Both the position numbers and the translations under genes were made by a program. A stretch of 64,000 bases of DNA from Paenibacillus sp. FSL M7-0420 (GTDB lineage: Bacteria; Bacillota; Bacilli; Paenibacillales; Paenibacillaceae): contig NZ_JBBOCJ010000001.1 of NCBI RefSeq assembly GCF_038002345.1, positions 5,084,001 to 5,148,000 on the forward strand, given 5' to 3'. Each line of letters begins with the position of its first letter. Position 1 is the stretch's first letter. Positions 1 to 4,134 of the stretch are shown here, piece after piece. Below the pieces are notes generated by a model that searched no databases, was not told where the DNA came from, and saw nothing but the letters and a program-made list of their open reading frames with translations.

Positions 1-144
1 GAACCCTGGGATATTATCGCCATTCTGGTTCATGAAATTCAAGATGCATCGCTCCTTTTGGCGTATTTTAGTCTTATTAAAGGTATATATACGGATACAA
101 AACAAAAAAGTCGCAAAAATTGCGACTTTAATGATGGTAGCTGA
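1..144 (+). CDS. possible 3' end of a gene entering from the left
   Basis: An open frame runs from the window edge to TGA at 142-144 and reads as plausible protein (EPWDIIAILVHEIQDASLLL and on). No start is visible and no family is recognised. The last codons lie inside the 65-bp direct repeat at 121-185, and a perfect hairpin (108-128) sits in the frame. It could equally be non-coding sequence. Weak call based only on frame openness and amino-acid composition. Confidence 0.25.
   Translation, partial: EPWDIIAILVHEIQDASLLLAYFSLIKGIYTDTKQKSRKNCDFNDGS
108..128. terminator. perfect short hairpin, possible terminator
   Basis: AAGTCGCAA and TTGCGACTT form a 9-bp perfect stem around AAA. The right arm is the first part of the 65-bp direct repeat, whose second copy (2205) keeps only that arm. 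It may end the gene entering from the left, but there is no long T-run. Confidence 0.35.
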
Positions 145-185
145 ATATTGCTGCGTTTCTCGCGGGTTTGGCTGGTTGGTTTACA
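121..185 (+). repeat. 65-bp direct repeat, copy A
   Basis: Matches 2205-2269 at 63 of 65 positions; the two differences are near bases 146 and 178. Copies A and B flank the regulator/peptide cassette, and each is followed by a hairpin repeat and a GC-rich terminator. Both copies could encode a short peptide starting MMVA(E/D)YCCVSRGFGWL, but the two base changes alter the protein and the frames diverge afterwards, so a coding role is not favoured. Confidence 0.85.
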
Positions 186-277
186 GTATATTAGTTCCGG
201 TTAAACCAAACCTTTTCATTCCAATTCCATTGACGAACTCGTCTCCATACGACGCCCGTGCACCCACACGTCCAGCA

Positions 278-306
278 CATTGTGTTCAGTTTTTCGCATA
301 CATTCC
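278..306. repeat. degenerate single copy of the hairpin repeat
   Basis: The segment has the GTTTTTCG-like core flanked by TTGTGTTC and GCATACATT, followed by CCACCCGTGCGG. It resembles the hairpin units at 2329-2560 and 63402-63735 and stands in the same position relative to the direct repeat and terminator as the array at 2329. The stem is weakened by mismatches. Confidence 0.45.
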
Positions 307-355
307 ACCCGTGCGGCTGCTAATTTCACAGTTTCTACTAATCCAGTTAAATACA

Positions 356-400
356 AAAAAAACCGGGGAACACGCAACCTGCGTCTTTTCCGGTTTTTTT
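356..400 (-). terminator. rho-independent terminator after the peptide gene
   Basis: AAAAAAACCGG and CCGGTTTTTTT enclose a loop that contains ACGCAACCTGCGT, a small inner stem. On the minus strand the stem ends in a run of T, so it can terminate the regulator-peptide transcript. The T-run on the other strand makes it bidirectional. Its layout matches the terminator at 2572-2613, so the two appear to be duplicates. Confidence 0.8.
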
Positions 401-528
401 GTATTGGGAAGAGGGTCAAAAGAAAACATCCCCGGGTGGCGGGGACGTTAATTGGGTTAATGAGGATATTTGATGATAACTAATGGAAGTATATTCTTGA
501 CAATTGATCCGTAAATACTTGCTAAAGA

Positions 529-672
529 TCAACCTCCGCCTGTACCATGTCCCATAGTTTGAATTAACATTTGTGTACTTGCAGTTACTAAAGGTTCTCC
601 TGTAGCAATTGGTAAAATTATTGTAGCAACCAAACTACAGGAAGCTAGGAGTATAAAGAGCTTTTTTTTCAT
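529..672 (-). CDS. small secreted signalling propeptide (Phr/AimP/AloP-like)
   Basis: Encodes 47 residues: a basic start (MKKK), a hydrophobic stretch LFILLASCSLVATIILPIAT typical of a Sec signal, then a short polar tail ending QTMGHGTGGG. GAGGTG lies 10 nt before the ATG. The gene overlaps the last 38 nt of the upstream HTH-TPR regulator in another frame, and a terminator follows. This is the usual layout of RRNPP-family receptor and peptide pairs (Rap-Phr, PlcR-PapR, AimR-AimP, and the AimR-like AloR-AloP pairs of Paenibacillus). By analogy the tail would be exported, trimmed to a short Gly/His-rich peptide, re-imported by an oligopeptide permease and bound by the regulator. Export and pairing are inferred; the exact mature peptide cannot be read from sequence. 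Confidence 0.75.
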   Translation of the reverse strand: MKKKLFILLASCSLVATIILPIATGEPLVTASTQMLIQTMGHGTGGG

Positions 673-2032
673 GTGAATCCTGCACCTCTCTAATCAGAAG
701 TTTGTAATGAAGTTTCTCATCTTCATCTGCCTTATGTCTAAACTGTTCAAAGAGATCGACACATTTGATAATCAATCCTTCGTTATTGATTCTAGCAGAT
801 GATTCCAAACTCTGAAGGATGAAGTTAATCCCTTCTTTACGTTTGTTATGTAGATGATAAAATGCCAGTTCAATGAGGAATCGGGTATGCTGATCCGTTA
901 TTATTTGCTCGTTATAACCGCCAAACTCTGTAGCATATGTCTTATAAGGAATATAAGCTGCGAACTGCTCCAGAACGTGATCAACATTCCAACTATAACG
1001 GTTAGCTGATGTCAGGATATTAGATAGAGCTACGAATATCTCATCTTTTTGAGAAGAGATATGTTCAATATACTGTGTAAGTATTTCCTGCTTACCCGAC
1101 ATAACCTGATAGAGTAAAGTATTCGCCCTACCCCATTCTTGAAACTGAACTACCGTTCGTTTCGCCTCGTTATCATTATTGTCTATCCAGCTTGTATCCA
1201 TATAAAGGTTGACGAATTTTAGCGCTGATGAATAATCACGATGTTCTTCACATATGCTTGCACGCATTAGATGAGAGTAGTAAATATAGAAGCATAGCGG
1301 TTTTTCAGTTTTTTTCTCATCATTCTGTCTGCGGTTTGATTGACGTTGAAGTTTACAACGAAGAGTAGCCAGATGAAGCATATCCTGGGCTAGTTTATCA
1401 GCTTTGTCCCATTTATGCAGTGAAAAATAGACATTTACTAAGTGCTTAATTCCATCCAACTGATCCGCCTCATCAAGCCTGTCCAAATAACATTCAAAGA
1501 TATGAGCCGCCTGTAAATTTCGGGCTTGATCGTCGCCAAGGGCAATCCGGAAAAGACGGTACTGGCACAAGGCCAGCCGTTCGGAGTTCTGGTATTTCTC
1601 ACTCTCACTCACGTTCTTATACAGTAGTTCTGCCGCTTGCCATTGCCCCTCCTGAAACAGCCCTTCAGCCACCTCAAATAGCATAGGAGCATAAGTCAAT
1701 TTCTCCAGCAGCTGCTGAACAACCTGTTCAATGCAATCCAGACGCCCCAGCGCGGCTGATCGTACAAGAAACGGCCTTAGCCGCCGCCAGGTTGGTGGTG
1801 AATGATCGAAGCATTCCTCCACATACAGACTGTAAAAGTGGTCCTCTGGAAGATTCATCGCCCTCGTGATCCGCTCCAGATGGTTCATGGCAATGGGCTG
1901 CTGACCATGAATCAGCCGACTAAGTGTTCCTGAATTAATTCCGGATTGACCGGCAAACTGATTAATGGTCATCTTCTGCTGAGACAGATGCCCCGATAAT
2001 GCATCTCGTATGGTTGCTATGATTGGGACCAT
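635..2032 (-). CDS. HTH-TPR transcriptional regulator, RRNPP/AimR-like
   Basis: About 465 residues. Residues about 5-65 form a Cro/CI-type HTH (TINQFAGQSGINSGTLSRLI). The rest is helical and TPR-like, with recurring A/L-rich helix pairs, as in peptide-binding RRNPP receptors. The ATG at 2032 is chosen because AGGTGG stands 7 nt before it; an in-frame GTG at 2038 overlaps that site. The 3' end overlaps the secreted peptide gene, making this its likely receptor. The protein is longer than AimR or Rap (both near 380 residues). The gene is more AT-rich than the operon to its right and is flanked by duplicated blocks, which suggests an acquired module. It probably binds DNA and changes activity when it binds the peptide; the targets are unknown. 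The HTH call is firm, the receptor call is inference. Confidence 0.8.
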   Translation of the reverse strand: MVPIIATIRDALSGHLSQQKMTINQFAGQSGINSGTLSRLIHGQQPIAMNHLERITRAMNLPEDHFYSLYVEECFDHSPPTWRRLRPFLVRSAALGRLDCIEQVVQQLLEKLTYAPMLFEVAEGLFQEGQWQAAELLYKNVSESEKYQNSERLALCQYRLFRIALGDDQARNLQAAHIFECYLDRLDEADQLDGIKHLVNVYFSLHKWDKADKLAQDMLHLATLRCKLQRQSNRRQNDEKKTEKPLCFYIYYSHLMRASICEEHRDYSSALKFVNLYMDTSWIDNNDNEAKRTVVQFQEWGRANTLLYQVMSGKQEILTQYIEHISSQKDEIFVALSNILTSANRYSWNVDHVLEQFAAYIPYKTYATEFGGYNEQIITDQHTRFLIELAFYHLHNKRKEGINFILQSLESSARINNEGLIIKCVDLFEQFRHKADEDEKLHYKLLIREVQDSHEKKALYTPSFL

Positions 2033-2087
2033 GTACACACCACCTGACTAGATTCCAAGAACTATATTTTTATTTTATAGTTGTAAT

Positions 2088-2103
2088 AATATTCTATAAT
2101 ATT
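2088..2103. promoter_or_regulatory. AT-rich dyad upstream of the regulator
   Basis: AATATTCTATAATATT lies about 55 bp before the regulator start. On the minus strand TATAAA follows closely and could be a -10. The dyad could be a binding site for the regulator itself, but AT-rich sequence makes chance dyads common. Confidence 0.35.
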
Positions 2104-2204
2104 CCAATGGTCAATATTTCAAATGAGTACAAACAGTGAAATAGTGGCAATTGACAGAGAGAAACGTAGCAAAATGCAGAAAGCTTGAACAAAGCTTAAT
2201 TAGT

Positions 2205-2269
2205 TGCGACTTTAATGATGGTAGCTGATTATTGCTGCGTTTCTCGCGGGTTTGGCTGGTTGTTTTACA
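2205..2269 (+). repeat. 65-bp direct repeat, copy B
   Basis: Second copy of the element at 121-185 (63 of 65 identical). The unit from one copy to the next is 2084 bp and contains the peptide gene, the regulator, a terminator and a hairpin repeat. No transposase and no terminal inverted repeats are seen. Confidence 0.85.
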
Positions 2270-2328
2270 AATTCATCCTGAGGATTGAGTCACGCTGGCG
2301 GCTCTTCATGCGGCACCCTGGCCATCGG

Positions 2329-2560
2329 AAATGTGTTCGGTTTTTCATGTTTATTTGGCCCGTACTCCCTCGCTTGGCGCAAATGTGGTCGGTTTTTCGA
2401 TTACATTCTGTCTGTACATCCTCATTTGGCACAATGTAATCGGTTTTCCGATTACATCCCGCCTATACGCCTTCGCTTGACGAAATGTGATCGGTTTTTC
2501 GATTATATTTGGCCCGTACGCCTTAAATTCGCGCAATGTGGTCGGTTTTTCGATTACATT
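2329..2560. repeat. tandem hairpin-repeat array (about 51-bp unit)
   Basis: One degenerate unit (2329-2355) is followed by four clear hairpins at 2382-2407, 2433-2457, about 2483-2508 and 2535-2560. Each has arms like GTAATCG and CGATTAC around a T-rich loop, with spacers such as CGCCTATACGCCTTCG. Units at 2382 and 2535 carry GTGGTCG opposite CGATTAC, which can pair on the + strand through G-U wobbles. The unit at 2433 has an extra C-G closing pair. The same family recurs at 63402-63735. This array plus the terminator fills most of the 2033-2629 gap. Confidence 0.85.
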
Positions 2561-2571
2561 CCACCTATACC

Positions 2572-2629: not shown

Positions 2630-3379
2630 TTAAATACTCGATTTATTACGGAAATAATTATGCAGAAACTCCTTGGCCCGCTCGGACTTTGGATGGTTGA
2701 ACACCTGGTCCGGCGTCCCTTCCTCCACGATTTTCCCTTTGTCCAAGAAAAGCACTTTATTCGCTACTTCATATACAAAGCTCATCTCATGCGAGACGAG
2801 AATCATCGTCTGACCGATGGCGGCGGTCTTCTTGATCGTCTGCAGCACCTCGCCGACCAGCTCAGGGTCCAGCGCTGAGGTCGGCTCGTCCAGGAGCAGC
2901 AGCTTCGGATTCATCGCGAGCGCGCGGGCAATGCCCACCCGCTGCTGCTGGCCGCCGGACAGATGCTTCGGATAATAATGAGCACGCTCAGCAAGGCCTA
3001 CCTGCTCCAGCTGCTGCTGAGCAATCTGCGCGGCTTCGCGGTCATTCATCCGCTTCACAATCTTCAGGCCTTCCTTAACATTCTCCAGCGCCGTCCGGTG
3101 CTGGAACAGATTGAATTGCTGGAACACCATCGCGGTCTGCTTCCGCAGCTCCAGCCGCTGCTTGTTCGTAATCGTACTGAAATCGACCTTGAAGCCTTCG
3201 AGATCAAGCATCCCCTGATCTGCCTGCTCCAGGCAGTTAAGGGAACGCAGGAAGGTGGACTTGCCCGCACCGGACGAACCGATGATGGCCACAACATCTC
3301 CCTTGTTAATCTCGACGGAGAGATCGTCCAGAATCAGATTGCCGTGAAAAGACTTGGATAAATGGCTTACCTTAATCAT
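2630..3379 (-). CDS. amino-acid ABC transporter ATP-binding protein (cystine/glutamine type)
   Basis: The 249-residue cytoplasmic ATPase energises import of a polar amino acid. It carries Walker [11 protein letters not shown]-loop region VFQQFNLF, signature LSGGQQQR, Walker [14 protein letters not shown] and the H-loop VSHEMSF, and has the usual length for the GlnQ/TcyC family. The ATG at 3379 overlaps the permease stop codon (TGATG) and follows AGGAGA, so it is preferred over a start 21 nt upstream. It is last in a four-gene operon with binding protein, CapA-like protein and permease, and a terminator follows. Family assignment is certain; the substrate is inferred from the binding protein, which resembles cystine-type proteins. 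Confidence 0.93.
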
Positions 3380-4134
3380 CAGATCTCTCTCCTTCCCCAA
3401 GAGAACCAGCCGCGGTTCATGGCCCCGGCAGCGGAGTCCGGAATGGAGAATCTTCGCTCCAGGAATCTCAGAAGCTGCTCAATCAGAATCGTCATGACCC
3501 AGTAGATGATCGCCAGCGCGAGATACACCTCGAAGAAGCGGAAGTTGCTGCCGGAGATGATTTTCCCCTTGGCCGTCATTTCAATCACACCTGCGACGAA
3601 GGCCAGGGAGGTTCCCTTGAGCAGTCCGATCAGGGCATTGCCCAGCGGAGGAATCGCCACCACCAGCGCCTGTGGAACGATGACTCTTCTCAGCACCTGA
3701 AGATACGTCATCCCCAGGGATTCAGCGGCCTCAATCTGACCCTTATTCACCGACTGCAGCGCAGCGCGGATCGTCTCCGAGTTGTACGCCGCTTCATTGA
3801 ACGCGAAGGTGACCAGCACGAAGATCATCGCCGGAATGGCATTGATATTATAATCCGTCCCGTACTGCTGATTAATGAATTTGAGTAACAACGGAATTCC
3901 GTTATAGGTCAGGTATAGCTGCACAATGATCGGCGTTCCACGGATGAACGAGATGAAAAGTGTGACTAGCTGGCTAAGCACGGGAATTCTGCGCATACGG
4001 ATAATGGCGAACAACAGCGCAAACACAAGGCCGACGATCATCGAGATGACCGTAATCTGCAGACTCACAGGAAGGACCTCTAACAGACGAGGTATCGCTG
4101 TGAACACCGCGTTAATATCAAAAATCTCTCCCAT
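3379..4134 (-). CDS. amino-acid ABC transporter permease (HisM/TcyB type)
   Basis: The 251-residue membrane protein has about five predicted helices. The EAA loop that contacts the ATPase reads EAAESLGMTYLQVLRRVIVP followed by QALVVAIPPLGN, typical of polar amino-acid permeases. Only one permease gene is present, so the channel is probably a homodimer, as in TcyJKLMN or YckA-like systems. It overlaps the ATPase gene by one base and starts 42 bp after the CapA-like gene. Confidence is high for family, moderate for substrate. Confidence 0.92.
   Translation of the reverse strand: MGEIFDINAVFTAIPRLLEVLPVSLQITVISMIVGLVFALLFAIIRMRRIPVLSQLVTLFISFIRGTPIIVQLYLTYNGIPLLLKFINQQYGTDYNINAIPAMIFVLVTFAFNEAAYNSETIRAALQSVNKGQIEAAESLGMTYLQVLRRVIVPQALVVAIPPLGNALIGLLKGTSLAFVAGVIEMTAKGKIISGSNFRFFEVYLALAIIYWVMTILIEQLLRFLERRFSIPDSAAGAMNRGWFSWGRREI

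Follow-up and report, generated by a model that had tools for sequence, protein, structure and literature searches.

The 64,000-nucleotide (nt) stretch of Paenibacillus sp. FSL M7-0420 analysed here (the window; positions 5084001-5148000; the genome comprises 7.67 Mb in two contigs) carries a gene for a predicted DNA-binding regulator, whose 3' end is overlapped by a gene for a short peptide with a secretion-type signal. We are highly confident that the two form an AloR-AloP quorum-sensing operon, a member of a known Paenibacillus family. A first-pass annotation of this DNA had proposed an RRNPP-type receptor/peptide pair, which was correct in kind. It had left two options, and only the AloR-AloP kind stands; a new RRNPP branch is rejected, because the receptor is homologous over nearly its whole length to AloR proteins of P. 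polymyxa and the alo13 locus. The kind of pair is therefore already known, and what is new here is tidy detail on a known family: a fixed overlap, a tail template and a promoter element.

Both open reading frames (ORFs) lie on the minus strand where the first-pass annotation had placed them, and the GAGGTG site, the overlap and the tail that it had read are all seen in the sequence. The main features are:

635..2032, minus strand: aloR-type receptor gene, with an N-terminal helix-turn-helix (HTH) and TPR-like helical repeats to residue 460
529..672, minus strand: aloP-type propeptide gene, with ATG start, 47 amino acids (aa), hydrophobic signal and tail GHGTGGG
635..672, minus strand: overlap of receptor end and peptide start, 38 nt (672-635+1)
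683..688, minus strand: ribosome-binding site GAGGTG of the peptide gene, within the receptor codons for REV
529..552, minus strand: codons and stop of the putative mature signal GHGTGGG, with invariant H and G around a hypervariable residue (T here)

Relationship to known Alo systems

Voichek et al. 2020 (PMC7425212) describe Alo systems in P. polymyxa, with homologues essentially in Paenibacillaceae only. According to them, strain ATCC 842 has 16 AloR receptors with short ORFs behind all but three, and orphan aloR genes exist; for 9 of 14 P. polymyxa AloP, C-terminal fragments were detected in the medium, which showed their secretion. In the case of Alo13, the mature peptide SHGRGG shuts off the AloR-activated spo0E promoter. 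A spo0E-like gene stands behind six P. polymyxa Alo systems, a frequent trait and not a defining one (PMC7425212).

The window receptor matches the receptor of locus L060 at 36% over 463 columns (E 1e-95), and a plasmid receptor of P. polymyxa ATCC 842 at 40% (E 4e-121). An annotated short coding sequence (CDS) shares 35 nt with that plasmid gene. L060 was recognised as the alo13 locus by its published primer sites, its tail and Spo0E. The four alo13 primer sites have 3, 0, 0 and 1 mismatches in L060 and 1, 1, 1 and 2 in the related locus L061, against best fits of 4 to 12 mismatches in the window locus. A Spo0E-like frame lies downstream in both loci, the one of L060 being confirmed by Pfam. 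The search had started from the ATCC 842 plasmid gene, which found nothing at E <= 1e-100 in the DNA of 100 genomes of the window's genus and reached two of 245 family genomes at E <= 1e-60, pointing to the genus of G312. Among 40 genomes of that genus, the SHGRGG pattern gave 15 matches in 11 genomes, with L060 and L061 beside a receptor and the other 13 not. The pattern alone shows nothing, since a reversed-pattern control matched at least as often.

In terms of the traits that characterise Alo short ORFs (32-50 aa, behind or overlapping the receptor 3' end, with a hydrophobic signal), the window peptide has 47 aa, a 38-nt overlap and such a signal. The host range agrees as well: a receptor match was found in 58 of 61 genomes of the genus, its own included, and the named relatives listed are Paenibacillus. 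As in Alo13, an HTH-TPR receptor of similar length is followed by a short, putatively secreted ORF overlapping its 3' end. As in P. polymyxa, there are many paralogues per genome, and AloP13 shares the x-H-G-X-G-G tail. The differences from Alo13 lie in the overlap (38 nt in the window, 50 nt in L060 and L061), in the exact tail and in the gene directly downstream, which is a Band_7 gene where a spo0E-like gene was looked for and not found. In a tree of 52 receptors (FastTree, drawn without support values), the window clade also stands apart from L060 and from the ATCC 842 plasmid receptor.

Other peptide-receptor systems were compared as well. Arbitrium was rejected as the family: the NCBIfam AimR model, in a profile check suggested by the first-pass annotation, stayed at 21.2 bits where the cut-off is 70, and matched residues 17-112 only. 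NprR-NprX, PlcR-PapR and Rap-Phr have a TPR superhelix in common with the predicted window receptor, but no PDB chain matched its sequence at E <= 0.001; the three weak chains below this level (E 0.24-1.6) include no RRNPP receptor.

The pair in homologues and in controls

Receptor homologues came from 13 loci of the same genome, a Paenibacillus phytohabitans contig (L019), five plasmid or phage records and, for 29 of 60 further genomes of the genus, the best hit in each. A scan of genome contigs confirmed one of 15 candidate stretches as a relative. From 51 receptor hits at 48 loci we kept the unique frames with 420 codons or more, 45 in all, excluding the shorter frames (L017, L018 and partial copies) and L055-L061. 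Close relatives are over-represented in this set because of its make-up, that is, own loci plus one best hit per genome.

An ATG-started, secretory-like ORF of 28-60 aa is present at the receptor 3' end in 35 of the 45 homologues. The overlap is exactly 38 nt in 30 of 45, and an HG motif falls within the last nine peptide residues in 34 of 45. All 35 paired homologues have a purine-rich site, loosely defined, ahead of the peptide. Among the 63 long frames of the window, the only positive was the pair itself (0/62 for the others). Dinucleotide shuffles gave an ORF in 10 of 2250 cases, none with an HG tail or a 38-nt overlap.

These counts bear on the simplest alternative, a chance frame behind an ordinary XRE-family regulator. 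It could appeal to the fact that no family model matches the ORF (none at E <= 1 in Pfam, NCBIfam or PHROGs) and that few databases hold it. A search of 5.8 billion predicted proteins returned two candidates only, one identical (no source listed) and one at 62%; this kind of search may overlook diverged relatives, because shared 5-residue words are required. The same result makes it plausible that the peptide gene had gone uncalled, as the first-pass annotation claimed. Against a chance frame stand the recurrence of the identical overlap and signal, the two controls and the pattern of substitutions. In ten hand-picked peptides of the window receptor clade (two from the same genome and eight from others; pooled pairs, no tree), the ratio of nonsynonymous to synonymous changes (pN/pS) came to 0.25 for the overlap, which is also constrained by the receptor frame, to 0.67 for codons 14-34 and to 0.36 for the tail. 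The set left out other peptides of 46-47 aa with a 38-nt overlap (L009, L010, L019, L037, L042 and L050). Across the same ten peptides, the other two reading frames contain 33 and 17 stops. As far as sequence allows, a chance frame is already refuted, and we give it almost no probability.

Ten of the 45 homologues lack a qualifying ORF, among them L026, which is syntenic and 81% identical. Two of the ten have a variant, namely a TTG-started copy at 38 nt in L024 and a GTG-started one 74 nt downstream in L023. The first-pass annotation had sought support in homologues with an overlapping secreted peptide of variable tail, and would have given up the pair had they lacked an adjacent one; the 35 paired homologues bear it out, and absence is not the rule.

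The peptide and its tail

The 47-aa peptide reads MKKKLFILLASCSLVATIILPIATGEPLVTASTQMLIQTMGHGTGGG. Its N-terminus is positively charged and is followed by a hydrophobic stretch, with a maximal 12-residue mean of 2.60 on a hydropathy scale (used here in place of Phobius or SignalP). This agrees with the secretion-type signal of the first-pass annotation. The C-terminus is QTMGHGTGGG. The DNA ahead of the start is TAGAGAGGTGCAGGATTCAC, and GAGGTG (688-683) stops 10 nt short of the ATG. The REV codons that hold this site (receptor residues 450-452) fall close to where the last predicted helix ends.

In the ten peptides of the clade H42, G43 and G45 are invariant, while residue 44 is T, V, Y, A or I; at further loci its equivalent is P, W, L, S, G, E or F. 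The tails thus follow a template, xHG-X-G, in which a single position is hypervariable, and SHGRGG of AloP13 conforms to it. Exceptions to the template are the peptide on the ATCC 842 plasmid, whose tail is GYIGGA, and one peptide of the window genome (EHGVEF).

A strongly hydrophobic N-terminus (first 23 residues) would also suit a small membrane or lipoprotein-like peptide, or a toxin, that is no pheromone precursor. LASC at residues 9-12 resembles a lipobox, and was counted in favour of this alternative. Residue 12 is Phe in two of ten close homologues, and a lipobox is thus not required. Furthermore, M, HG and G of the soluble tail are invariant in 10/10 close peptides, and the tail aligns with the proven AloP13 signal. 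We regard a membrane peptide or toxin as very improbable, and retain the propeptide of an AloP signal.

None of the fixed overlap, the tail template and the promoter element was met with in the main sections of PMC7425212 or in the passages of PMC10075063 and PMC9765709 that were consulted. A literature search (AloR, AloP, SHGRGG, overlap) returned no further Alo paper.

The receptor

The receptor frame was listed from a GTG at 2038 (467 aa), and an ATG at 2032 gives 465 aa. The ATG is the likelier start, because AGGTGG stands 7 nt before it and because 465 aa is the length of database entry P0001. This is also the coordinate at which the first-pass annotation had ended the gene.

The HTH (PF13443; E 2.1e-5, 25.1 bits against a cut-off of 22) is the sole Pfam family above its cut-off in the receptor, with no Pfam match to TPR. 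Most AloR proteins likewise stay under the TPRpred threshold, according to Voichek et al. 2020 (PMC7425212). The predicted model has four helices within residues 10-60 (467-aa numbering), taken as the HTH, and TPR-like helical repeats at 69-460. TPR proteins predominate in both structure-match lists. NprR, RapI, RapH and PlcR are among the matches, and score no better than unrelated TPR proteins. In a Foldseek search meant to name a subfamily, three of 1220 matches reached E <= 0.001, and TPR proteins of every sort resemble one another. The last nine residues have a predicted local distance difference test score (pLDDT) below 50, which fits a stretch that is free to encode the peptide start in another frame.

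Paralogues and history of the site

The genome has 13 aloR matches, 11 of them full length. Eight of these 11 have a peptide, and L008, L012 and L014 have none. The eight tails are GHGTGGG (window), NHGVGGG, SHGVGGS, GHGTGDG, GHGPGGG, GHGWGT, NHGEG and EHGVEF. The overlap is 38 nt in seven of the eight pairs and 47 nt in one. Of the two partial copies, L018 has a peptide ending in NNHGAGH and L017 has none. The pairs L011 and L013 are followed by Spo0E-like genes, and at L011-L012 a receptor, its peptide, Spo0E and an orphan receptor follow one another, similar to the order in the alo13-alo14 locus of Voichek.

The window pair lies between genes given the working labels hfl and glnQ. This site was compared in 10 of 11 matching genomes (G038, at 68%, was left out), of which eight align on both sides and two on one side. 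Five of the eight have no aloR at the site, apart from a fragment in one of them (tblastn agrees). In the other three (G042, G095 and G097; L074, L092 and L097 against window 107-2570) aloR is inverted and has no intact aloP: two of these receptors end early, and the third spells GHGTGGG with no start found. The module is therefore variable at this site, relatives having lost the peptide or the whole module, or carrying aloR inverted.

This history raises the possibility of an orphan AloR, in which the receptor hears a sister peptide and the window aloP is a relic nearing loss. All three same-site relatives that keep aloR have no intact aloP, a paralogue at 2187493-2188872 has the tail GHGTGDG, and orphans are known both in P. 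polymyxa and among the full-length paralogues of this genome (3/11). The window aloP, on the other hand, is intact in start, ribosome site and tail, and in another genome (L027) an intact ORF with the tail GHGTGGG likewise adjoins a receptor of 75% identity. We judge an orphan receptor unlikely, although it is the most probable of the alternatives, and keep the reading of a working AloR-AloP pair.

Two copies in the genome merit separate mention. L018 (G000:C1:655149-655904) is a 281-codon frame that matches receptor residues 194-453 only, with a signal peptide ORF kept. At L015 (G000:C1:6064227-6068597), a RelB-like antitoxin gene (PF04221) lies 106 nt beyond the pair, whose tail is NHGEG; this hints at a toxin-antitoxin module under pheromone control.

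Promoter element and proposed mechanism

Upstream and downstream of the pair we found:

2086..2114, minus strand: sigma-A-like promoter of aloR, TTGACC-17-TATTAT
2123..2140, minus strand: conserved element TTCACTGTTTGTACTCAT, upstream of the -35
425..449, minus strand: terminator-like hairpin after the peptide gene
356..400, strand not given: second hairpin with A/T runs; arms of 21 nt, 86% complementary

Beyond the hairpins comes the Band_7 gene (hfl), and an ABC-transporter ATPase gene (glnQ) lies at 2630-3400 on the other side. The receptor and peptide genes look like an isolated two-gene operon.

The block TTCAC-N3-WT-N3-CYMAT ... TTGACC ... TATTAT and the ribosome site are the main aligned parts upstream of 15 receptors of the clade. 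The element with its -35 occurs at five places in the genome and at none in the control. Each of the five, the window's among them, directly precedes an aloR gene; the pattern was built from those same genes, and is not independent of them. Six of the 11 full-length paralogues have no such element. It may serve as an operator, either for these AloR proteins or for some common regulator; alternatively, the genes may share an ancestral promoter.

A mechanism can be proposed along known lines. One transcript from the 2114-2086 promoter would carry aloR and aloP. Translation of aloP, from the ribosome site in the last aloR codons, is probably coupled to that of aloR, because the site is embedded in the aloR end. 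The propeptide would be exported through its N-terminal hydrophobic signal, and extracellular cleavage would free a short peptide from the C-terminal GHGTGGG region. As cells accumulate, the peptide would be re-imported, presumably through an oligopeptide permease, and would bind the TPR superhelix of AloR, changing what this DNA-binding regulator does. As with AloR13, the receptor on its own may activate its target promoter, and the peptide may switch it off. The likely targets are its own promoter and the sister aloR promoters with the same element.

These results extend the Alo layout of P. polymyxa to a second Paenibacillus lineage, with a measurable grammar: an overlap fixed at 38 nt, a ribosome site embedded in the receptor gene, a tail in which one residue is hypervariable, and a promoter element specific to the receptors. 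Such a grammar allows rule-based finding of uncalled aloP genes. With 11 receptors and eight tails, one genome is a natural set for studying how receptors discriminate near-identical signals. More speculatively, the Alo family of this clade might consist of parallel, cross-wired channels, with one template x-H-G-X-G-G in which X is mainly the address, and modules gained, flipped or stripped of their signal at fixed sites. The receptors of this branch share a promoter element that occurs at no other place in the genome, and in this picture each AloR might therefore control its sister receptor-signal pairs rather than outside genes. We offer this only as a tentative picture, less likely than not.

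Repeats around the locus and other carriers

The aloR-aloP locus is flanked by direct repeats, with only these two matches genome-wide:

120..185, plus strand: 66-nt direct repeat, left copy
2204..2269, plus strand: 66-nt direct repeat, right copy, 97% identical to the left

No Rfam family matched the window at its gathering score. Tandem 51-nt repeats lie at 2328-2570 and 275-309, built on the near-palindrome TGTNATCG(6 nt)CGATTACA. With one mismatch at most, the near-palindrome matches the genome 366 times on the forward strand and 380 times on the reverse (palindromic sites counted twice; control 0). Arrays at 51-nt spacing are among the matches listed; this is a dispersed repeat family.

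AloR-like genes also occur on phages. In Brevibacillus phage SecTim467 (L022, 67399-69130) such a gene, at 27% over 98% of the query, stands directly behind an annotated Spo0E gene; the short CDS that overlaps it was rejected as a signal peptide, having no hydrophobic signal. In Brevibacillus phage Emery (L023, 36902-38385) the AloR-like gene matches at 23.5% over 66% of the query. The secretory-like short ORF behind it contains two copies of HGGIGW, and an agrB-like gene is near.

Lastly, AloR-like genes were found on 36 plasmid records (26 Paenibacillus, 7 Brevibacillus, 2 Brevibacterium and 1 Arthrobacter). In two of the three plasmids examined (P. sonchi and P. xylanexedens), a Spo0E-family gene lies <=2 kb downstream.
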